A DNA stretch of 34,289 nucleotides from an uncultured Chloroflexota bacterium (lineage in GTDB: Bacteria > Chloroflexota > Anaerolineae > Anaerolineales > Villigracilaceae), in the NCBI GenBank assembly GCA_900696595.1, contig CAADGT010000177.1, forward strand, positions 1-34,289. Reading direction: 5' to 3'. The notes beneath the pieces were generated by a model. It was given only the letters and a program-made list of their open reading frames with translations. It ran no database searches and was not told the DNA's origin. How positions within the stretch are numbered: the stretch's first letter is position 1; each line of letters opens with the position of its first letter. Shown in pieces: positions 10,178 to 20,513 of the stretch. Both the position numbers and the translations under genes were made by a program.

Positions 10178-10318
10178 GTAGGGGCGACCCGTCCCAATCC
10201 TTCGTCAGATCCGTTCTAAGGAAAGGGTCGCCCTTGCTGGCAGGTTGGCGCTTTCGTTACAGGGCGACCCTTGCTGTAAGATGGTATCGCTTGCAAAACC
10301 TTGACGGGTCGCCCCTAC
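10178..10318. repeat. composite inverted repeat of the 'ggggcgacccgtc' family
   Basis: GTAGGGGCGACCCGTC (10178-10193) is perfectly inverted at 10303-10318, with two further inner copies of AGGGTCGCCCTTGCTG-type sequence around 10223-10280. It fills the spacer between convergent genes. The right arm contains the stop codon of the PBP-like gene (10315-10317). A related copy lies at 31666-31720. Confidence 0.8.
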
Positions 10319-12828
10319 TTCACCGTCACCTGAATCACCGCCGTATCCACTGCCTGGTCGGCGCGGACGACGACCAATTGCACGGCGTACAAGCCGCTCA
10401 GTCCGGTTGTGTCCCATTCCGCCAGCATCCCGCCTTCGACGGGCGTTGCGTTATCGCCGCCCAGTTGAATCCACTCCTGCGGATTCAGTCCCTTGCCCAC
10501 TTGCACGCGATAATATAAAAAGTCCTCGCCCGATGCCGTGCCGAGAATCAGCGCCTTGCCGTTCACATCTGAGAACAGGGGCGGGGCGGTAATGTTGGCG
10601 TACGGGTTGATCGGCGGCGCTTGAATCGCATCGTACACCGTCGGCGGGACGGGGATGCCCTCGCCCGCCGCCCATTCGCGCGCTTCGTCGGGGAGAATCA
10701 TATACACGCGCTTTTCGATCAACTCCGGCGGCGTGAAGACTGTGGCAAGCAAGCCCGTTTCGCGGTTGATGAAAAACTCGCGGAACAAAGTATCGGCTTG
10801 AGTCGGTTCGCTGCCGTTCAGGAAAACTTCGGTTACAAGGTTCGGACATTCGCGGGTCGGCAACATTCCAGAGGGGTCGCAAACAGTCATCGTCGAAATT
10901 CCCGGCGGCGGAGTCCAGCCGTCGTTTGGCTTGCCTTCCGAAGCCGTCTGCATCAAGGCGTTCCACAGCGCGGCGGGGAATCGCGGCGTGACAATGTCAT
11001 TCTCGCCGCGCGCGCCCGTCCATACCGCAACCGAAACATACGGCGTAAACCCGATCATCCACGCATCTTTCCCGTCGGGGGTCTGCCCCGGCTTTGCGCC
11101 CGCGGGAAAACCGAGCTCCAAAACATTCTGCCTGCCCCATACATCCGACCGCGCAGGTTCGTCGCTCAAAACGTCGGTCATCAAATACGCCATTGCGGGC
11201 GTCACCACAGTTTGCGCTTCGGGCAATGACCAGTCGAGCAGGGCTTCATGATCCACGCCTTCCACACGCAGGACGGTCGCAGGCGAAAAATCGTCGTTCA
11301 CATATTGACCGAACTTCACGCCCTGAACGCCGAACGACCCATAGGCGCCTGCCAGATCGAGCAGCGAAACTTCCTGACCGAAATTCAAACCGAACGACGA
11401 CGCGATATTTTCCACATTCTCGATTCCCATTTGCGTTTTCAGCGTCTCGACGGGGATTTGATAATCGTTCGCCAGTGCGATCCTTAATCGCATCGCGCCG
11501 TGATATGCGCCGTCGAAATTTGGATTGATGTCTTCGCCGGGGATGTCCCACGTTAAAGAGGCTGGGCCCAGGCCGCGGGTGAATCCCGTCAAGTAGACAA
11601 ACGCATCCAACCCGGACCCGGGGTTGTGGGCGGCGATAAGGGGCGTTTCCTCGCCTTGAATTGTCTCTCCCACCATCGCCAACACCTGCCCCGTCTGCGG
11701 GTCGAGGATGATCGCGCTGGCGGACGAATCGGCAAACGTCGAATCCGGCGGCAGGGATGGGAGTCGTCGCGCCGCGTCACATGCGATGGTCGGTTCGGGC
11801 AAGCCCGCCAGGCGCGAAGCGTAGACTTCCGTTGCGCACGCGGCGTTCTTCTGCAAGTCATAATCCAGCGTGGAGGTGACGATGATGCCGCCGCGCAGAA
11901 TCCGCTCGCGGGGGATCTGCGAGTCGATCTGGGCGAGGAGAAGGTTCAGGAAGGCGGGGGCAACTTCGGGCGGGGTTGGAGGCGCGGGCATGATGGCGGG
12001 ATTCTCTCCCAGCGCAATCGAAGCCAGGTCGGAGGGAATCCATCCGAGGTCGCGCATCACATAAAGGATTTCGCGCCCGCGTTGAGTGGCGACCAGCGGC
12101 GCGTCGTGCGGGTTGAGCGCGGGAGTCTGACTCGTCGCGGCAAGCATGGCGGATTCGGCGAGGGTCAGTTCTGCGGCGGGCTTGCCAAAGTAAAGTTGCG
12201 CGGCGGCTTCCACGCCGTATGCGGTGTTGCCGAAGTTCGCGCTGTTGAGATACCACTCCATGACTTGATCGCGCCCGAATTGCGACGTGATCTGCGCGGC
12301 GAGCAAGCGCTCGCGGACGGCGCGTTTGAACGACGGCGGTTCGTTATAAAGCATCAGGTCGTTGACAAGTTTTTGCGCGATGGTCGGGTGCAGGTCGAAA
12401 TTATTGAATCCATCGAGCGAGTAGCCGGAGTGAGTTTCGAACCCGGGGTCGGCGGCGGCGATGACGGCGTTGACCAAGTCCTTTGGAATGTGCTGGGCGT
12501 TCTGTTCGCTGACGGGGATGTAGCGTCGCGGCGATTCGTCCGGCGCGAAGGTGGCGAGCAATTGCAGACCGCTGCGGTCATAGATGCGCGTGGGTTGCAA
12601 CAGCAGTCCGTCGGGCGGGTTGAGCAGGATCGGAAGGATTTGCGTCGAGGGTAAATTGCGGGTGACATCGGCGTAGAGGAATGCGCCGATGATGATGATC
12701 GAGCCGAGGATGAGCGAAAGGACAAGCCCGACGCTGAGGATCGCGCCGCGCGAACGGTTTTCGCTTCGCTTTTGTTTGTCCAGTCGGCGGTCGCGCCGCG
12801 CGCGCAGGATGGGCAGGGTGGAGCGCAT
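10315..12828 (-). CDS. class A penicillin-binding protein homologue with altered active sites
   Basis: This 837-residue protein has a cytoplasmic basic tail, one membrane anchor (about 29-53), a GT51-like glycosyltransferase region (about 75-255), a transpeptidase-like region (about 365-620) and a C-terminal beta-rich domain (about 755-837). The fold-specific text is clear (EWYLNSANFGNTAYGVEAAAQLYFGK), yet catalytic motifs are changed: the first GT glutamate of E-D-x-x-F is Ala126 (AADPGF), and G-G-S-T-I-T-Q-Q-L has become LHPTIAQKL. The transpeptidase S-x-x-K reads S405-G-L-D408, S-x-N reads D455-Y-Q457, and K-T-G reads K579-P-G581. It is therefore probably a non-catalytic cell-envelope pseudoenzyme, perhaps a scaffold. 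ATG 12828 is chosen because TATACT lies seven bases upstream; the longer open frame beyond it is tandem repeat. Confidence 0.88.
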   Translation of the reverse strand: MRSTLPILRARRDRRLDKQKRSENRSRGAILSVGLVLSLILGSIIIIGAFLYADVTRNLPSTQILPILLNPPDGLLLQPTRIYDRSGLQLLATFAPDESPRRYIPVSEQNAQHIPKDLVNAVIAAADPGFETHSGYSLDGFNNFDLHPTIAQKLVNDLMLYNEPPSFKRAVRERLLAAQITSQFGRDQVMEWYLNSANFGNTAYGVEAAAQLYFGKPAAELTLAESAMLAATSQTPALNPHDAPLVATQRGREILYVMRDLGWIPSDLASIALGENPAIMPAPPTPPEVAPAFLNLLLAQIDSQIPRERILRGGIIVTSTLDYDLQKNAACATEVYASRLAGLPEPTIACDAARRLPSLPPDSTFADSSASAIILDPQTGQVLAMVGETIQGEETPLIAAHNPGSGLDAFVYLTGFTRGLGPASLTWDIPGEDINPNFDGAYHGAMRLRIALANDYQIPVETLKTQMGIENVENIASSFGLNFGQEVSLLDLAGAYGSFGVQGVKFGQYVNDDFSPATVLRVEGVDHEALLDWSLPEAQTVVTPAMAYLMTDVLSDEPARSDVWGRQNVLELGFPAGAKPGQTPDGKDAWMIGFTPYVSVAVWTGARGENDIVTPRFPAALWNALMQTASEGKPNDGWTPPPGISTMTVCDPSGMLPTRECPNLVTEVFLNGSEPTQADTLFREFFINRETGLLATVFTPPELIEKRVYMILPDEAREWAAGEGIPVPPTVYDAIQAPPINPYANITAPPLFSDVNGKALILGTASGEDFLYYRVQVGKGLNPQEWIQLGGDNATPVEGGMLAEWDTTGLSGLYAVQLVVVRADQAVDTAVIQVTVK

Positions 12829-12841: not shown

Positions 12842-12911
12842 AAGGAAAAGGCTTGCCCTGAGCGAAAGCGAAGGGATGAAGGATGAAGGTTTGCCCTGAT
12901 CGAAGGGGGAT

Positions 12912-12999
12912 GGAGAATGGAGAATAGAGAATGGAGAATAGAGAGTAGAGAGTAGAGAGTAGAGAGTAGAGAATAGAGAGTAGAGAGTAGAGATTGGAG
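12912..12999. repeat. degenerate tandem 7-mer array
   Basis: About twelve units of the type GAGAATA/GAGAGTA/GAGAATG run head to tail. The array is read through by an open frame on the minus strand as repeated L-L-S-T-L-Y-S-like residues, but a period of seven bases shifts the frame each unit, which argues against coding. It resembles a slippage-prone minisatellite. Confidence 0.8.
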
Positions 13000-13040
13000 G
13001 TTGGTTGGGCAACACGGTTGTTGCATGGTATTGCGCGCAT

Positions 13041-14211: not shown

Positions 14212-15174
14212 ATGGCAGAAATCATCGTCGTCGGCTCCCTCAACGCAGACCTCGTCGTCAAATCGCCGCGCTTCCCGCAGCCGGGCGAAACCATCAGCGG
14301 CGAAGATTTACAAATCATCTCCGGCGGCAAGGGCGCAAACCAGGCTGTGGCGGCGGCAAGGCAGGGGGTGGACGTAACAATGATCGGACGGGTCGGAAGC
14401 GACAATTTCGGCGCCTTCCTCGTCGAGAATCTCAAATCGAATCGCGTGGATACGTCGCGCGTGATTGTAGATGAAGCCGCGACCGGAACCGCCGTCATCC
14501 TCGTGGATGCGAACGGGCAGAACAGCATCGTCCTCTCGCCGGGCGCGAACGGCAAAGTCTCGCCAGCGGATGTAGACTCCGCCTCTTTCCTAAACTCGAA
14601 GTTGCTTCTGCTCCAGTTGGAGATTCCCACGCCGACGGTTCTCCGCGCCGCGCAAAAAGCCCGCGAACACGGAATGACCGTCCTCCTCAACCCCGCGCCC
14701 GCAAAATCATTGCCCGCTGAATTGCTTGCAAACGTGGACATTCTCATCCCCAACGAAAGCGAACTTGCTTTGCTTACCGGTTTGCCCATCACGGATGTTT
14801 CATCCGCTGAAGTTGCCGCAAAAGAAATTTTGAAACAGGGCGTGAAGACGGTGATCGTGACGTTGGGCAGCGAAGGCGCGTTATTGGCGACAGGCGCGCA
14901 AGCGACGCAGGTAGGCGCGTATACAGTTGACGTTGTGGACACCACCGCGGCGGGCGACGCCTTCATCGGCGGATTCGCTTCCAAAATCCTTACGCATAGT
15001 TGGAGTTCTCCAACCCCGGCGGATGCGCAAGAGAGCGCATCCTACGCAAAAGCCCTCGAAGAAGCCGTCCGTTATGGATGCGCATGCGGCGCGCTGGCAA
15101 CGACCAAATTCGGCGCACAACCATCTTTGCCAACCAAAGCCGAGGTCGAAACCTTCCTCAACCAATATCAATAA
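14212..15174 (+). CDS. rbsK: ribokinase (PfkB family)
   Basis: This 320-residue sugar kinase phosphorylates ribose at O5 with ATP. It has the N-terminal PfkB signature region (GSLNADLV, GGKGANQAVAAARQG, GRVGSDNFG), LNPAPA, PNESELALLTG and the C-terminal DTTAAGDAF with catalytic base D249. Nucleoside hydrolases follow, giving it ribose as the natural substrate. Residues about 261-279 (THSWSSPTPADAQESASY) are extra compared with the usual spacing from GGFA to LEEAVRYG, and are encoded by two adjacent perfect hairpins (14999-15042). The last codons (NQYQ, stop) lie in the word repeat that fills the spacer to the next gene. The protein should still fold if the loop is external. Confidence 0.93.
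   Translation: MAEIIVVGSLNADLVVKSPRFPQPGETISGEDLQIISGGKGANQAVAAARQGVDVTMIGRVGSDNFGAFLVENLKSNRVDTSRVIVDEAATGTAVILVDANGQNSIVLSPGANGKVSPADVDSASFLNSKLLLLQLEIPTPTVLRAAQKAREHGMTVLLNPAPAKSLPAELLANVDILIPNESELALLTGLPITDVSSAEVAAKEILKQGVKTVIVTLGSEGALLATGAQATQVGAYTVDVVDTTAAGDAFIGGFASKILTHSWSSPTPADAQESASYAKALEEAVRYGCACGALATTKFGAQPSLPTKAEVETFLNQYQ
14991..15048. repeat. double-hairpin palindromic insertion inside rbsK
   Basis: GTTGGAG (14999-15005) pairs with CTCCAAC (15008-15014), and GGATGCGC (15021-15028) pairs with GCGCATCC (15035-15042). The pair is flanked by a TACGCA direct repeat (14991-14996 and 15043-15048). It falls where ribokinases normally have no extra residues and keeps the frame open. Confidence 0.7.
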
Positions 15175-15264
15175 CCAACCTCCAATTACCAATTACCAAC
15201 CTCCAATAACCAACCTCCAATTACCAATTACCAACTTCCATTCATCCTTCCTCCTTCATCCTCT
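15175..15264. repeat. tandem 'ccaattaccaaccte' word array
   Basis: The spacer is made of degenerate copies of CCAATTACC, CCAATAACC and CCAACCTCC, then a 'ttcatccttcctcc' tract. It begins inside the last ribokinase codons and runs to the nucleoside hydrolase ATG at 15265, leaving no Shine-Dalgarno. Confidence 0.8.
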
Positions 15265-16224
15265 ATGTCCTCCCCCACCCGTCTCATCCTCGACACCGAC
15301 CCCGGCGCGGACGACGCGCTCGCCATTTTGCTCATGCTGGCTTCGCCTGAGATTCAACTCGAAGCCGTCACTGCCGTCCACGGCAATGTGGGCATCGAAA
15401 AGACCACGCGCAACGCGCTGGCGATCTTGGAATTTCTCAATGCGGATATTCCGGTTGCAAGGGGATGTTCCCGTCCGCTGATCAAATCGCCGCATAATTG
15501 GGGAGAGTCCGTCCACGGCGCGAGCGGATTGGGACAGGCAAAACTGCCCGAGCCGAAGACAGAGCCGGTTGGCTTGCACGCAGTAGATTACCTGATTCAG
15601 CGCTTCCTCGCCGAACCGAAGGAACTGACGCTGTTTGCCGTCGGTCCGCTGACGAATATCGCGCTGGCGATCCGCAAAGAGCCGAAGTTCGCCGAAGCGG
15701 TAAAGGAATTGGTCGTCATGGGCGGGGCGATTCGCTCCGGCGGGAATGTCACGCCGCTGGCGGAGTTCAACATCCACGAAGACCCGCACGCGGCGCACAT
15801 CGTCTTCAATTCGGGGATTCCCATCACGCTCATTCCCCTCGATGCGACCTATAAATGTTTGCTCGCTCCGGCGGACGTTGAACGACTGCTTAAGACCGGT
15901 TCGCCCGTCGCGCATTTTGTCCGCGACGTGATGGCGGATTACATGGCGTTCTATTCAAAATATGAAGGGTTCGCCGGGTGCGCTTTGCACGATCCGTTGA
16001 CTGTCGCGGCGATCATCGCGCCGGAGTTGCTGCATCTCGAAGAACATTATGTGGACGTGGATGTTTCGGGCGGGGTCTCGACGGGGAAGACTTACGCCGA
16101 TTTTATGAAAGTCTCGAAGAAGCCCGCGAACATGAAGGTCGCTTTGGATGTGAAGGGCAGGGAGTTCGTGGAGTTGTTTTTGGAAAGGATCATGTCATTC
16201 ATACATGCTCAAGGCGGCGGCTGA
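15265..16224 (+). CDS. nucleoside hydrolase, inosine-uridine-preferring type (copy 1)
   Basis: This 319-residue enzyme cleaves the N-glycosidic bond of ribonucleosides to base and ribose. The calcium- and ribose-binding signature D10-T-D12-P-G-A-D16-D17 is at the start, followed by GNVGIEKTTRNA, VVMGGAIRSGGNVTPLAEFNIHEDPHAAHIVF and a C-terminal LHDPLTVAAI that supplies the last calcium ligand. Base preference cannot be read from the sequence. The ATG is preceded by repeat and has no obvious ribosome site. A paralogue follows four bases downstream, sharing the same order of motifs; the pair probably differ in base preference. Confidence 0.95.
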   Translation: MSSPTRLILDTDPGADDALAILLMLASPEIQLEAVTAVHGNVGIEKTTRNALAILEFLNADIPVARGCSRPLIKSPHNWGESVHGASGLGQAKLPEPKTEPVGLHAVDYLIQRFLAEPKELTLFAVGPLTNIALAIRKEPKFAEAVKELVVMGGAIRSGGNVTPLAEFNIHEDPHAAHIVFNSGIPITLIPLDATYKCLLAPADVERLLKTGSPVAHFVRDVMADYMAFYSKYEGFAGCALHDPLTVAAIIAPELLHLEEHYVDVDVSGGVSTGKTYADFMKVSKKPANMKVALDVKGREFVELFLERIMSFIHAQGGG

Positions 16225-16228
16225 GCTA

Positions 16229-17200
16229 ATGCAAAAACACATCATCCTCGACACCGACCCCGGCATTGACGACTCGCTTGCCATTCTTTTGGCGGCGGCT
16301 TCGCCTGAGATTGTTGTGGACGGCGTTGTCTCCGTGCATGGCAACGTCTCCACAGAGCAAACCACGCGCAACGCCTTGGCTGTTTTGGAGTTGGCGAAGG
16401 CGGGTCACGTCCCTGTCTATAAAGGATGCGACCTGCCTCTGGTAAAAGAGTCATTGCTCAGCCCGGAGACTCACGGCGACTCCGGCTTGGGCTATGCAGA
16501 ACTCCCAGAACCGCTGAATCAGCCCGGGGCGGGGCATGGAAGCGATTACATTATCGAGCGGATCATGTCAGAGCCGGGGGAGATCACATTGGTGTGCATT
16601 GGTCCGTTGACCAATGTCGCGCTGGCAATTCGGCAGGAGCCGCGCATTGTGGAAAACGTCAAAGAGGCGTTCATCATGGGCGGGGCGATCCAGTACCCGG
16701 GCAACACCACGGCGCTGGCAGAGTTCAATACCTTCGTGGACCCGCACGCGGCGCATATCGTTTTTCATTCGGGGATGCCGATAACGCTCACGCCGCTGGA
16801 CGTCACTTATCAATGTGTCTTCACCAAAGACGATTTGAATCGTTTGCTGAAAATCAATTCGCCGATCACAAAATTCATCGCAGATTCGACCCGCTTCTAC
16901 ATGGAGTTCCACGACGAGTATCAAAGCATCGAGGGCTGCGTGATCAACGACCCGATGACGCTGGCGCTGACCTTCATGCCGGAGATTTGCGACTACCAGG
17001 ATTTGGTCGTGGACGTGGACCTTTCGACGGGGGTTGGGCTGGGCAATACCTTCGCCGATTTCTATAATTATGAGAAGAAGCCGAAGAATATGCGGGTGGC
17101 AATGGGCGTGCGCCCGCGTCTGTTCATGGAAATGTTCCTGGAGCGGATGGAGAAACTGGCGCAGGGGGCATTTGCTCAGGGCAGCGAGAGCAATGGATAA
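16229..17200 (+). CDS. nucleoside hydrolase (copy 2)
   Basis: This 323-residue paralogue has D8-T-D10-P-G-I-D14-D15, GNVSTEQTTRNALAVLELA, FIMGGAIQYPGNTTALAEFNTFVDPHAAHIVF and INDPMTLALTF, so the active site looks intact. ATG 16229 is chosen because it aligns with the paralogue; an in-frame ATG at 16205 would overlap the upstream stop codon. It differs from copy 1 in several substrate-proximal segments, consistent with a tandem duplication that has diverged. It sits directly before the ECF transporter genes, which points to imported nucleosides as substrates. Confidence 0.94.
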   Translation: MQKHIILDTDPGIDDSLAILLAAASPEIVVDGVVSVHGNVSTEQTTRNALAVLELAKAGHVPVYKGCDLPLVKESLLSPETHGDSGLGYAELPEPLNQPGAGHGSDYIIERIMSEPGEITLVCIGPLTNVALAIRQEPRIVENVKEAFIMGGAIQYPGNTTALAEFNTFVDPHAAHIVFHSGMPITLTPLDVTYQCVFTKDDLNRLLKINSPITKFIADSTRFYMEFHDEYQSIEGCVINDPMTLALTFMPEICDYQDLVVDVDLSTGVGLGNTFADFYNYEKKPKNMRVAMGVRPRLFMEMFLERMEKLAQGAFAQGSESNG

Positions 17201-17205
17201 ATTTC

Positions 17206-17235
17206 GTGACATTCCGACGCCGAAAGTGTTATGAT
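17206..17235 (+). promoter_or_regulatory. possible internal promoter before the ECF transporter genes
   Basis: GTGACA (17206-17211) and TATGAT (17230-17235) are spaced by 18 bases, close to a sigma-70 pattern, about 40 bases before the ECF substrate-binding gene. It may allow the transporter to be expressed apart from the hydrolases. Confidence 0.3.
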
Positions 17236-17275
17236 AATCAAGTCGTTCATTTCATCATCTCAACCGGAGGATGCC

Positions 17276-18043
17276 ATGTTTGAGAATATCAAAAAAGAGT
17301 TTACCACCCGCACTCTGGTGCTTATTCCAATCGCAATTGCCATAAATATCGCCATTGGAGAGTTGGTGGTTCGTTTGAAACTGCCAGTGTATTTGGACAG
17401 TATTGGAACCGTCCTGGTTGGCGCGATTGCCGGTCCGTGGGCAGGCGCGCTGACAGGCGGTCTTGCCAATTTGATCTGGGGTCTGTTTAACCCATTTGCC
17501 GCGCCTTTCTTTTATGTTGCGGCGGCGATCGGTCTTATGGCGGGGTTTGCGGGCAAACGCGGCGCGTTCCAAAATGAGACCCCGCGCTGGGTGTCGGTGG
17601 TTGTCGGCGCAGTTTTTGTTTTTTCATTAACCCTGTTCATCCTTGCCTTCATCAATGCTTCAACGGATGAGACGGGCTACACCTCCTACCCAAGCATGAG
17701 TCAGTTGTTCTCTCAATATTTGGGGATCTTCATCTTCGCGATTCTTGCCGGCGCCGCCATCGGATACTTCCTCCTGCAAAAGGGCGGTTATGCGGGTATG
17801 TGGGGGCTCATCACCGGGATTGTCGCCGCCATTATTTCTGCGCCAACGGCTGCTTATGTTTTTGGCGGCGTGACAGGCTCCGGCACAGACTTGCTGGTTG
17901 CCGCCTTCCGCGCCAGCGGCGGCGGTATTCTCGCCTCGGTACTTGCGCAGGGCAGCGTCTCTGACCCATTTGATAAAATGCTTTCTTTCATGGTGGTTTG
18001 GCTTATTATTCGCTCTCTGCCTGCCCGCTTCACTTCACGATAA
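17276..18043 (+). CDS. ECF transporter substrate-binding (S) component
   Basis: This 255-residue integral membrane protein has five to six predicted helices and the S-component pattern LPVYLDSIGTVLVGAIAGPWAGALTGGLANLIWGLF, with small residues packed in the helices that contact the T component. GGAGG lies five bases before ATG 17276; the in-frame ATG 17231 would add an unlikely tail. Substrate is not readable from sequence, but neighbours (two nucleoside hydrolases and ribokinase) suggest a nucleoside. It heads the transporter set S-T-A-A. Confidence 0.88.
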   Translation: MFENIKKEFTTRTLVLIPIAIAINIAIGELVVRLKLPVYLDSIGTVLVGAIAGPWAGALTGGLANLIWGLFNPFAAPFFYVAAAIGLMAGFAGKRGAFQNETPRWVSVVVGAVFVFSLTLFILAFINASTDETGYTSYPSMSQLFSQYLGIFIFAILAGAAIGYFLLQKGGYAGMWGLITGIVAAIISAPTAAYVFGGVTGSGTDLLVAAFRASGGGILASVLAQGSVSDPFDKMLSFMVVWLIIRSLPARFTSR

Positions 18044-18052
18044 AACCGCGAC

Positions 18053-18829
18053 ATGAACGCCCTTGGCATGTATGTAGCCCGCGAAAGCGGGCTGCATAGT
18101 CTTCACCCACTTACCAAAGTTTTGCTGACTCTATTATTTATTACGGCAGGACTGACTCTGCCCGGAAATTGGACTGGATATTTCATTGTCGCCTTCATTG
18201 TTTTTCCACTCGCCTTTTGGGGGCGCGTAGTCTCAAACCTGTTCTCTGCAACGTGGAAGGTCAGCCTGCCGTTCGCAATTTCTGTGATCCTGATACATGG
18301 TTTTTTTTGGGGCGAGGGTACGCCTGTTTTTGAAGTCGGCATCCTTTCTCCTAAATGGGAGGGCGCCATATTTGCAGCAATTAGCATGGGCAGGATTATA
18401 TTGGTTATGTCTGTTTTTTTATTGTTTTCCATGACAACCCGGCCAGATGCTTTGATGATTACCCTTAAACAGGCTGGGGTTCCGAGCAGCATTGCCTATA
18501 TTATTGTTACAACCTTACAAATTGCGCCGAGCTTTCAAAGAAAAGCCCTGACCATATTGGATGCGCAGCGTTCGCGCGGACTCGAAACGGAAGGAAACCT
18601 GTACATTCGCGCCAAAGCGCTCATTCCTCTTATCCTGCCTCTGGTACTCGGCAGCCTGATGGAAGTGGAGGAACGCGCCATAGCCATAGAGGCGCGGGGC
18701 TTCAACTCCGGTAAAAAGGAAACCAGTCTAATTGAAATTCCTGATACGCCCTTGCAAAAAAATATTCGACGTATTGTCATCTTTTCGATATTTGGGTTGA
18801 TCGTACTTGGTGTGCTATGGCGTTTGTAG
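18053..18829 (+). CDS. ecfT: ECF transporter transmembrane (T) component
   Basis: This 258-residue membrane protein has about five helices and the cytoplasmic coupling motifs AQRSRGL and IEARGF, the 'Ala-Arg-Gly' elements that contact the two ATPases. Residues 7-16 (YVARESGLHS) are encoded by a 12-bp hairpin with a GAAA loop (18071-18098), unusual for this family, which normally begins close to the 'HPLTK' segment. It starts nine bases after the S gene and its 3' end overlaps the next ATPase gene by 13 bases, which implies translational coupling. Confidence 0.93.
   Translation: MNALGMYVARESGLHSLHPLTKVLLTLLFITAGLTLPGNWTGYFIVAFIVFPLAFWGRVVSNLFSATWKVSLPFAISVILIHGFFWGEGTPVFEVGILSPKWEGAIFAAISMGRIILVMSVFLLFSMTTRPDALMITLKQAGVPSSIAYIIVTTLQIAPSFQRKALTILDAQRSRGLETEGNLYIRAKALIPLILPLVLGSLMEVEERAIAIEARGFNSGKKETSLIEIPDTPLQKNIRRIVIFSIFGLIVLGVLWRL
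18071..18098. repeat. perfect GNRA-loop hairpin in the 5' coding region of ecfT
   Basis: TATGTAGCCCGC (18071-18082) pairs with GCGGGCTGCATA (18087-18098) with a single G-T pair and a GAAA tetraloop. It lies 18 bases into the reading frame and may be a repeat copy that became coding sequence or an mRNA structure affecting translation. Confidence 0.65.
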
Positions 18830-19668
18830 TTCTTAAAAATCTCACATACCTGTATCCAACTTCCGAAAAGCCGGTTTTGCGAAACCTCAGTTTTCATATT
18901 CAAGAAGGCGAGTTCGTCGCAGTCGTCGGTCCCAACGGGGCGGGCAAATCAACGCTGTGTTATGCGCTGGCGGGGTTTGTCCCGCATTTTTTCAAGGGCG
19001 AAATTTCGGGCGAGATCGAAGTGAACGGGAGGAAGTCGAGCGAGTCCACGCTGGATGAGTGGGTTCTAAACGTCGGACTGGCGTTTCAAAACCCGTTCAA
19101 TCAAATTTCCGGCGCGAAGTACACCGTCTTCGAGGAGATCGCCTTCGGGTTGGAAAACATCGGCGTGCCGCGCGAAGAGATGAAGAAGCGGGTGGAGGAC
19201 GCCATGTCCCTGACGGGGATCGGCGATCTGGCGGATCGCTCCCCTTATTCGCTCTCCGGCGGACAACAGCAACGCGTCGCGCTGACCTCGATCCTGGTCA
19301 TGCGACCCCGGCTTTTGGTCCTCGACGAGCCGACCTCGCAAATGGACCCGATCGGCGCGCGCGAAGTCTTTGGCGTGGTGCGGAAGATGGCTGAAGAAGG
19401 GATGACGGTCGTGATGGTCGAACATAAAGTGGAATGGATCGCGAATTTCGCAGACCGGGTCATCGCTTTGAAAGAGGGTCAAATCTTGCTCGAAGGGTCT
19501 GCCAGCGAGGTGTTGACCTCCGAAGCGCTGGTCGAAAATGGGTTTGGCGTTTCGCGTTACACATCGGCGGCAAGAGAGGCGAAGAAAAAAGGGCTGTGGA
19601 AGAAGGAACGATTACCAGTCACTTTGGACGAAGCGGCGGAAGGGTTTAACCTGACGCGTAATGCGTGA
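18817..19668 (+). CDS. ecfA1: ECF transporter ATPase 1
   Basis: This 283-residue ABC ATPase powers the ECF transporter. It has Walker A GPNGAGKST (38-46), Q-loop FQNP, a canonical signature SLSGGQQQR, Walker B LLVLDEPTSQMD and the switch histidine in VVMVEHKVEW. It overlaps the ecfT end by 13 bases. The final residues LTRNA and the TGA stop (19666-19668) are provided by a 'gcgtaatgcgt' palindromic repeat that continues into the spacer. It pairs with ecfA2, whose signature motif is altered, so this subunit may supply the one canonical ATP site. Confidence 0.95.
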   Translation: MAFVVLKNLTYLYPTSEKPVLRNLSFHIQEGEFVAVVGPNGAGKSTLCYALAGFVPHFFKGEISGEIEVNGRKSSESTLDEWVLNVGLAFQNPFNQISGAKYTVFEEIAFGLENIGVPREEMKKRVEDAMSLTGIGDLADRSPYSLSGGQQQRVALTSILVMRPRLLVLDEPTSQMDPIGAREVFGVVRKMAEEGMTVVMVEHKVEWIANFADRVIALKEGQILLEGSASEVLTSEALVENGFGVSRYTSAAREAKKKGLWKKERLPVTLDEAAEGFNLTRNA

Positions 19669-19703
19669 CGCGCAATATCGCGCATTACGCATTACGCATT
19701 ACG
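19656..19703. repeat. 'cgcattacgcattacg' repeat overlapping the ecfA1 3' end
   Basis: GCGTAATGCGT (19656-19666) faces three direct copies of CGCATTA (19681-19703) in inverted orientation. The left arm encodes the last ecfA1 residues and part of its stop; the right arm ends three bases before the ecfA2 start. Confidence 0.75.
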
Positions 19704-19706
19704 AAT

Positions 19707-20513
19707 ATGACGGAATCAATGAAGATCGCCATAGATAAACTCCATTTCACCTACCCCATCGGCTTGGAAGCCTTGAAGGGCATCAGCCTCGTCGTCGAAC
19801 CCGGCGAGCAGGTCGCGATCGTCGGGCAGAACGGCGCGGGGAAGACGACGCTCGCGCGTCACTTGAACGGACTGCTCAAGCCGACATCCGGCTCCGTATT
19901 CATTGGCGATTGGGAGACGACAAAATTTTCGACGGCGAAACTGGCTGCGCGGGTCGGCTATGTTTTTCAAAACCCGGACGAGCAATTGTTCTCAAGGGAT
20001 GTGGTGACCGAAGTCTCGTTCGGTCCGCGCAATTTGGGATACGCCAAGGGGAAAGTGGATGAACTCGTCGAGCGCGCGATGGCGTTGACTGAGTTGAACG
20101 GCAAGGCTGAGGCCAATCCCTACGACCTCTCGCCCGCCTGGAGAAAAATGGTCGCGCTGGCTTCGATCATAGCGATGGACACGCCCATCGTCATCTTCGA
20201 CGAGCCGACGACGGGACAGGATGCCGTCAACGTGGCGAGGATTGCTCATGTCATATCGGAATTGAAGCGCGAGGGCAGGACCGTCGTCGTCATCACACAC
20301 GACATTGACTTCTGCGCCGAGAACTTCGAGCGCGTGATCGCTTTATCGCAGGGGCGGGTATTGCTGGACGGCTCGACGCGGGAGGTGTTGGGTCAGGAAG
20401 ATATCCTGGCGCAGACCTATGTGGAACCCCCGCAGTTGACGAGGTTGGGAAAACGATTGGGGTTGAAAGAAACGGTGACGACGCAGGAGGAGTTTATAAA
20501 GTCGCTCGCGTAG
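19707..20513 (+). CDS. ecfA2: ECF transporter ATPase 2 with altered signature motif
   Basis: This 268-residue ABC ATPase has Walker A GQNGAGKTT (40-48), Q-loop FQNP, Walker B IVIFDEP (D165, E166), D-loop TTGQD and switch H198. Where the ABC signature L-S-G-G-Q belongs it reads L141-S-P-A-W-R-K147 (DLSPAWRKMVALASII). Some ECF ATPase subgroups also depart from L-S-G-G-Q here, so this need not be a defect, but the ATP site completed by this motif may be weak. The start is ATG 19707; the longer frame upstream is a repeat. No Shine-Dalgarno is visible. It ends the operon. Confidence 0.93.
   Translation: MTESMKIAIDKLHFTYPIGLEALKGISLVVEPGEQVAIVGQNGAGKTTLARHLNGLLKPTSGSVFIGDWETTKFSTAKLAARVGYVFQNPDEQLFSRDVVTEVSFGPRNLGYAKGKVDELVERAMALTELNGKAEANPYDLSPAWRKMVALASIIAMDTPIVIFDEPTTGQDAVNVARIAHVISELKREGRTVVVITHDIDFCAENFERVIALSQGRVLLDGSTREVLGQEDILAQTYVEPPQLTRLGKRLGLKETVTTQEEFIKSLA

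Follow-up and report, generated by a model that had tools for sequence, protein, structure and literature searches.

A class A penicillin-binding protein homologue from Anaerolineales with its catalytic motifs lost

Can a gene for a class A penicillin-binding protein (PBP) in which every catalytic motif is altered still be kept as a protein, and if so, for what kind of work? Class A PBPs are usually studied as enzymes and as antibiotic targets. The gene in question is found in an uncultured Chloroflexota bacterium of the order Anaerolineales, in a stretch of 34,289 nt of contig CAADGT010000177.1 (assembly GCA_900696595.1), which we call the window.

The protein and its catalytic motifs

An earlier note on this DNA had reported an intact frame, and we find the same: the gene at 10315-12828 on the negative strand has 837 codons and no internal stop. 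Its ATG at 12828 is backed by a conserved protein start (MPSTLPILRARRERR in the consensus), and the coordinates include the stop codon. We refer to the 837 aa product, a class A PBP homologue with its catalytic motifs lost, as pseudo-aPBP. All protein features below are encoded on the negative strand.

In brief, the N-terminus of pseudo-aPBP (residues 1-28) is rich in Arg and is assumed to lie in the cytoplasm, and a hydrophobic membrane segment (residues 29-56) follows it; the two are encoded at 12661-12828, with limits set by eye. R9, R11, R12 and R27 are invariant in all 32 rows of alignment A1. The hydrophobic segment, also read by eye, and a helix over residues 5-56 in the AlphaFold2 model agree with the membrane anchor of a class A PBP. 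The GT51-like domain (residues 110-260, 12049-12501) matches PF00912 at residues 110-258 with an E-value of 1.3e-29 and 103.3 bits against a Pfam cut-off of 27. The transpeptidase-like domain (residues 366-635, 10924-11733) is recognised from Pfam, PDB alignment and Foldseek. Its PF00905 match is below threshold (residues 371-481, 0.0016, 18.2 bits against a Pfam cut-off of 22.1), but the PBP1A structure 7u4h aligns over residues 369-740, and the PDB matches cover both the GT51 and the transpeptidase domains. The NCBIfam model PBP_1a_fam matches at 3.1e-74, which is under its curated cut-off. A C-terminal extension (residues 636-740, 10609-10923), in which Cys650 and Cys661 are kept, and a terminal all-beta domain (residues 741-837, 10318-10608) complete the protein.

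The structure models have a mean pLDDT of 50 for the full protein (32 sequences) and 60 for residues 366-837 (29 sequences, three intact relatives added); the terminal domain is the best-predicted part of the second model. PBP1A chains rank first in a Foldseek search with this weak 366-837 model, at an rmsd of about 10. Since the models are poor, we used them for fold recognition alone and not for the cleft or for interfaces.

General background on the GT51 and transpeptidase motifs was taken from PMC4810414. Alignment to PBPs in the PDB and to intact relatives puts the altered motifs of pseudo-aPBP where the earlier note had placed them. A126 (12451-12453) replaces the first glutamate of GT51, S405-G-L-D408 (11605-11616) stands for SxxK, D455-Y-Q457 (11458-11466) for SxN and K579-P-G581 (11086-11094) for KTG. 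The protein thus lacks the motifs of an active class A PBP and is a pseudoenzyme in the sense of an enzyme homologue with catalytic residues lost. The statement that all motifs are altered is correct motif by motif but not residue by residue, since S405, K579, G581 and E173 survive. E173 (12310-12312) is the retained second GT51 glutamate; loss of this residue too was considered and rejected, because alignment to the intact sisters places a glutamate there. Which glutamates of the domain are catalytic we take to be as in model PBPs.

The GT51-like domain is changed further in that motif 2 is degenerate (PTIAQK for STITQQ) and about 11 residues are absent between motifs 1 and 2. In no alignment did we find an intact substitute site to which the catalytic Ser, Lys or Glu could have moved. 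A sequencing error in the window can be excluded because the motifs altered here are affected by losses in the homologues as well. With S405 and K579 still in place, some residual activity is conceivable.

Distribution, origin and constraint of the dead clade

A scan of the contig collection gave 39 loci, mostly from Chloroflexota MAGs, and alignment A1 took 31 of these. Relatives 56-87% identical to pseudo-aPBP have losses at the motifs altered in it, and the PBPs of three loci (L040, L043 and L044) have their motifs intact. The set was extended by profile searches that covered 297 genomes from the class and 201 from the order. Of the 65 genomes listed for f1, the family of the window, 64 gave matches of 1e-170 or better, G137 being the one without a match; these matches were partly read for motifs, and 7 further genomes without a match may include f1 members.

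For a motif census, 60 added loci from families across the order were joined to the earlier loci, giving 104 distinct dead-clade sequences and 31 distinct intact ones. Duplicates (L047, L049, L058 and L069) were removed ahead of the counts, and the rows L039 (partial), L034 and L042 (split frames) and L051 (the window itself) were dropped. The partial L151 was scored as lacking the GT glutamate, and the domain comparison was made without L062, L077 and L079. The copies in L034 and L042 are split over several frames; in L042 assembly errors are likely, because the neighbouring genes are split as well. Another contig, L036, is filed under a Methylomicrobium MAG and bears a typical dead PBP; it is probably mis-binned.

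All four scored motifs (first GT glutamate, SxxK, SxN and KTG) are lost in 97 of the 104 dead-clade sequences, the remaining seven keeping one each, and all four are present in 31/31 PBPs outside the clade. The first GT glutamate is kept in 2/104 and the second in 60/104. At the transpeptidase motifs, S405 is kept in 71 of the 104, K408 in none, S455 in 3, N457 in 1, K579 in 86, T580 in 7 and G581 in 95, so that a whole SxN survives in one sequence and a whole KTG in four. Position 405 is T in 26 sequences; at position 408, where at least eight residues are seen, 44 sequences have D and 30 have T. The Asp at position 455 is shared by 90 of the 96 dead sequences outside family f5. The spacer between GT motifs 1 and 2 measures 11 or 12 residues in 87/104 dead sequences and 22 or 23 in 29/31 intact ones. 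Furthermore, at 30 sites the 18 intact sequences and the 43 f1 dead sequences compared are each fixed to at least 90%, but for different residues; S388E, N394E, R401H and K408D are among these sites.

Both FastTree and IQ-TREE group pseudo-aPBP with class A PBPs and nest the dead clade among intact ones. The intact group was defined by motif, and the 139-sequence tree separates it from the dead sequences without exception. FastTree support for the dead clade is 0.811 with family f5 and 0.999 without it (139 sequences). In IQ-TREE the clade has 100/100 SH-aLRT/UFBoot both with and without f5, on 45 of the 139 sequences (25 dead), a subset from which long branches (L077, L079, L158, L193 and L194 among them) were omitted. 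In IQ-TREE, support for the order's intact clade as its sister is low (82/51). Dead copies occur in families f1, f2, f5-f10, f63 and f64, where f2 and f7 are each represented by one dead sequence, that of f7 being partial. Intact copies occur in f3, f4, f61, f62 and f65, which belong to this order too, and in those genomes read that are from the class but not from the order. Family f5 branches first, has the full GT spacer in four of its eight sequences and S455D in none, and its state looks intermediate. Long branches are seen in some members of f2, f10 and f63. The simplest reading is that the chemistry was lost once in a common ancestor and that further erosion followed family by family.

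The earlier note had also stated that the gene was kept as a protein and had proposed a dN/dS check and a comparison with the active PBPs of the genome. The statement is strongly supported, by a conserved clade, a dN close to that of the active paralogue and constraint in every domain. In 11 genomes of the genus the dead gene was set against the class A PBP of the type found on contig C213, whose motifs are intact in the ten copies read (L005, L078, L080-L083, L085-L087 and L090). The median ratio of dN, dead over C213-type, is 1.09 (55 pairs, same genomes). Where dS is finite, omega ranges from 0.08 to 0.26 in the dead gene and from 0.05 to 0.16 in the active PBP; in the same pairs it is mostly higher in the dead gene, which counts against the role proposed below. 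Many pairs have a dS that is infinite, saturated or nearly so, and omega is therefore rough and we rely on the dN ratio. Conservation of the clade under purifying selection is what is expected of a retained pseudoenzyme.

Constraint extends across all domains. Median dN (66 pairs) is 0.142 for the C-terminal extension, the slowest part, 0.190 for the terminal domain, 0.212 for the transpeptidase and 0.219 for the GT domain. Between f1 dead sequences and the intact sister clade, mean identity is 0.40 for the GT and 0.36 for the transpeptidase domain (0.70 and 0.69 within the sister clade), and 0.48 for the C-terminal extension and 0.46 for the terminal domain (0.57 and 0.51 within it). Thus the last two domains are near the intact type; their identity to C213-type PBPs is 0.25 and 0.21. 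By these sequence comparisons the catalytic domains appear to have diverged at inactivation, and the C-terminal extension and the beta domain to have stayed close to the ancestral state. We read this as a sign that the ancestral job of the C-terminal modules continued once catalysis stopped.

Possible roles and related systems

On balance, and with modest confidence, we consider that pseudo-aPBP is a pseudoenzyme descended from an active class A PBP and retained as a non-catalytic partner of peptidoglycan synthesis. A structural or regulatory role in the envelope would be the likeliest one, given the membrane-anchored PBP architecture and the retained C-terminal modules. The ancestral gene encoded an active class A PBP. 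One branch of Anaerolineales then lost the GT and transpeptidase residues, most simply once in a common ancestor, while another class A PBP stayed in the genome, and purifying selection kept the protein as a membrane-anchored pseudoenzyme. The protein is presumably inactive and probably acts by binding, as a scaffold or an allosteric regulator of peptidoglycan synthesis. It would dock by means of its ancestral C-terminal modules, the extension and the beta domain, and of the surfaces of its dead domains that are still PBP-like. In the former transpeptidase cleft, the newly conserved Asp455 may aid folding or bind a new ligand.

Other GT51 proteins accompany the dead copy. A GT51 match with E below 1e-50 is present in 45/45 genomes of one sample, in the carriers of a dead copy apart from the dead gene itself, and a second genome sample likewise has a strong GT51 match elsewhere, except for G010 (partial matches only). 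Genomes of the intact type have two or three GT51 matches (one in G330), which suggests that redundancy preceded the loss. We did not detect a dead copy in 19 draft genomes examined, each with exactly one GT51 match, which is strong; the dead protein therefore does not look like an obligate partner. In G137, G232, G288 and G299 searches down to 1e-8 gave no dead copy. The 19 drafts are 90-99% complete, and any one absence could reflect a gap. Two genera of family f10, g15 and g18, show the absence consistently, which indicates that the protein is dispensable in some lineages and that the active PBP does not need it. Many genomes of g15 and g18 (those of g18 measure 1.7-2.4 Mb) combine a single GT51 match with no detected dead PBP and are possible natural deletion strains. 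In the order sample, 27 of 201 genomes have no match at 1e-60; true absence is wider, because this threshold also admits active PBPs such as that of G247.

A somewhat different function, which we regard as possible though doubtful, is that of a repurposed binding protein whose dead clefts bind a ligand (lipid II, a glycan strand, a muropeptide or other) and which works as a sensor or decoy and not as a scaffold. The near fixation of Asp455 outside f5, the new fixed D408, E388 and H401 in the relatives of the window protein, the 30 sites fixed differently in intact and f1 dead sequences and the retention of E173, S405, K579 and G581 in pseudo-aPBP all fit such a function. Besides D455, however, few new residues are fixed clade-wide, as the mixture at position 408 illustrates, and the shortened GT spacer should impair lipid binding. 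Some of the same residues could be taken for a rebuilt active site in which S405, D408, D455 and K579 carry out another reaction, given how often S405, K579 and D455 are kept in the clade. A new active site should be fixed, but the putative nucleophile and its partners differ between families (T at 405, at least eight residues at 408), and new catalysis is unlikely. Residual penicillin binding or slow transpeptidation with a non-canonical base, for which S405 and the KTG lysine are still present in pseudo-aPBP, seems very unlikely when the clade retains no SxxK lysine and next to no whole SxN or KTG.

That the gene is heading for loss and has been retained by chance alone we find the hardest to believe. 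Repeated absence and the long branches in f2, f10 and f63 are in its favour; against it are a dN close to that of the active paralogue, the intact frames and a mean column identity of 73% over 32 sequences. Gradual loss is contradicted for family f1 and may hold for some long-branch members. Returning to the non-catalytic partner of peptidoglycan synthesis, a more specific version can be offered, more tentatively than the binding protein above: a doubly dead class A PBP would have been recruited early in a large Anaerolineales branch as a dedicated controller of wall building. It would dock on the wall machinery by its PBP-like shape and its ancestral C-terminal modules, and its Asp455 cleft would sense a ligand that is a lipid or comes from the wall. 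If so, a former drug target would have turned into a sensor-regulator of its active sisters.

Pseudo-aPBP resembles class A PBPs of the PBP1A type in domain order, in both folds as judged by sequence and in its nested position in the trees, and it shares the C-terminal extension with its intact sisters. It differs from them in that the first GT glutamate, the SxxK lysine, the SxN motif and the KTG threonine are gone and the GT spacer is shortened. Inactive wall-enzyme homologues are already known as regulators: the degenerate LytM factors EnvC, NlpD and ActS are reported to activate amidases without catalysis of their own (PMC7668044, PMC8360153, PMC8416486 and PMC5533458). The likeness to pseudo-aPBP is one of working only, an inactive homologue kept as a regulator; LytM factors have an unrelated fold and belong to the hydrolase side of wall growth, and it is for them that the regulator role is reported. 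In Csd1-Csd2, Csd2 is the member without activity. The Helicobacter Csd1-Csd2 heterodimer (PMC5053510) is a possible precedent for an inactive paralogue paired with an active one, although these are M23 peptidases instead of PBPs.

The same genome has another PBP-like module, outside the window, in the form of a SEDS (FtsW/RodA) polymerase fused to a PBP-like domain (G000:C173:24574-27249, negative strand; the same as L218:572-3250, negative strand). The fusion matches PF01098 at 4.7e-69, PF00905 at 2.6e-8 over the first 50 positions of that model, and PBP_dimer_2 at 3.9e-6. The SxxK lysine is missing in 20/20 fusions read by eye from the alignment, the copy of this genome included. Like pseudo-aPBP, the fused module lacks this lysine and is widespread in the order; unlike it, it is a PBP_dimer_2-matching domain fused to FtsW/RodA and encoded by a separate gene. 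In G014, G015, G314 and G016 (contig edge) the frame read has SEDS without the fused domain, and in G315 a fusion with a dead transpeptidase domain stands beside an intact class A homologue. Presence of the fusion does not track that of the dead class A PBP. A search for cases in which the SEDS protein and the dead PBP are absent together gave none; in 18/19 genomes without a detected dead copy the SEDS protein is in a frame of at least 865 aa, so it too seems able to do without the dead PBP. That PBP modules free of chemistry are kept beside a polymerase makes a scaffold or regulator more plausible, without proving it.

A search of the open-access literature with narrow terms gave no description of a doubly dead class A PBP family. 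The family described here is widely distributed and offers an evolutionary series from intact to dead. A dead lineage conserved near the rate of its active sister separates the non-catalytic work of PBPs from catalysis, and provides a natural map of the modules that matter without chemistry, namely the C-terminal extension and the terminal domain. In addition, when PBPs of the Anaerolineales (Chloroflexota) are counted by their GT51 matches, both wall synthases and targets of beta-lactams are overestimated.

Gene neighbourhood and other features of the window

A folP gene lies upstream of 19 of 43 dead loci and of none of 16 intact loci, with stretches that differ in length and gene names read from the sequence; L040 and L103 are one gene in the intact count. 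A pfkA gene, named likewise from the sequence, is downstream in 18 of the 43 dead loci. Many relatives (L010, L012, L014, L020, L025 and others) share a conserved order, folP, a TPR-like gene and the dead PBP, then pfkA, RNase Z and ftsK. The copy in the window stands elsewhere, with neither folP nor pfkA as a neighbour, and no wall-synthesis family was seen among its immediate neighbours, which counts against a part in peptidoglycan synthesis. The gene order of the dead loci gave no functional hint.

Directly upstream of the pseudo-aPBP gene is a heptanucleotide tandem repeat (GAGAATA, 12910-13004), which is probably not part of the protein. Other heptanucleotide arrays in the window are found at 15162-15240, 2710-2744 and 19681-19703. 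Three of the four arrays are intergenic or largely so, and one is located within an ABC ATPase gene. The region 14212-20513 on the positive strand is likely a cluster for nucleoside salvage and uptake, encoding a PfkB kinase, two tandem nucleoside hydrolases, CbiQ, two ABC ATPases and a protein whose ECF match is weak and below threshold.
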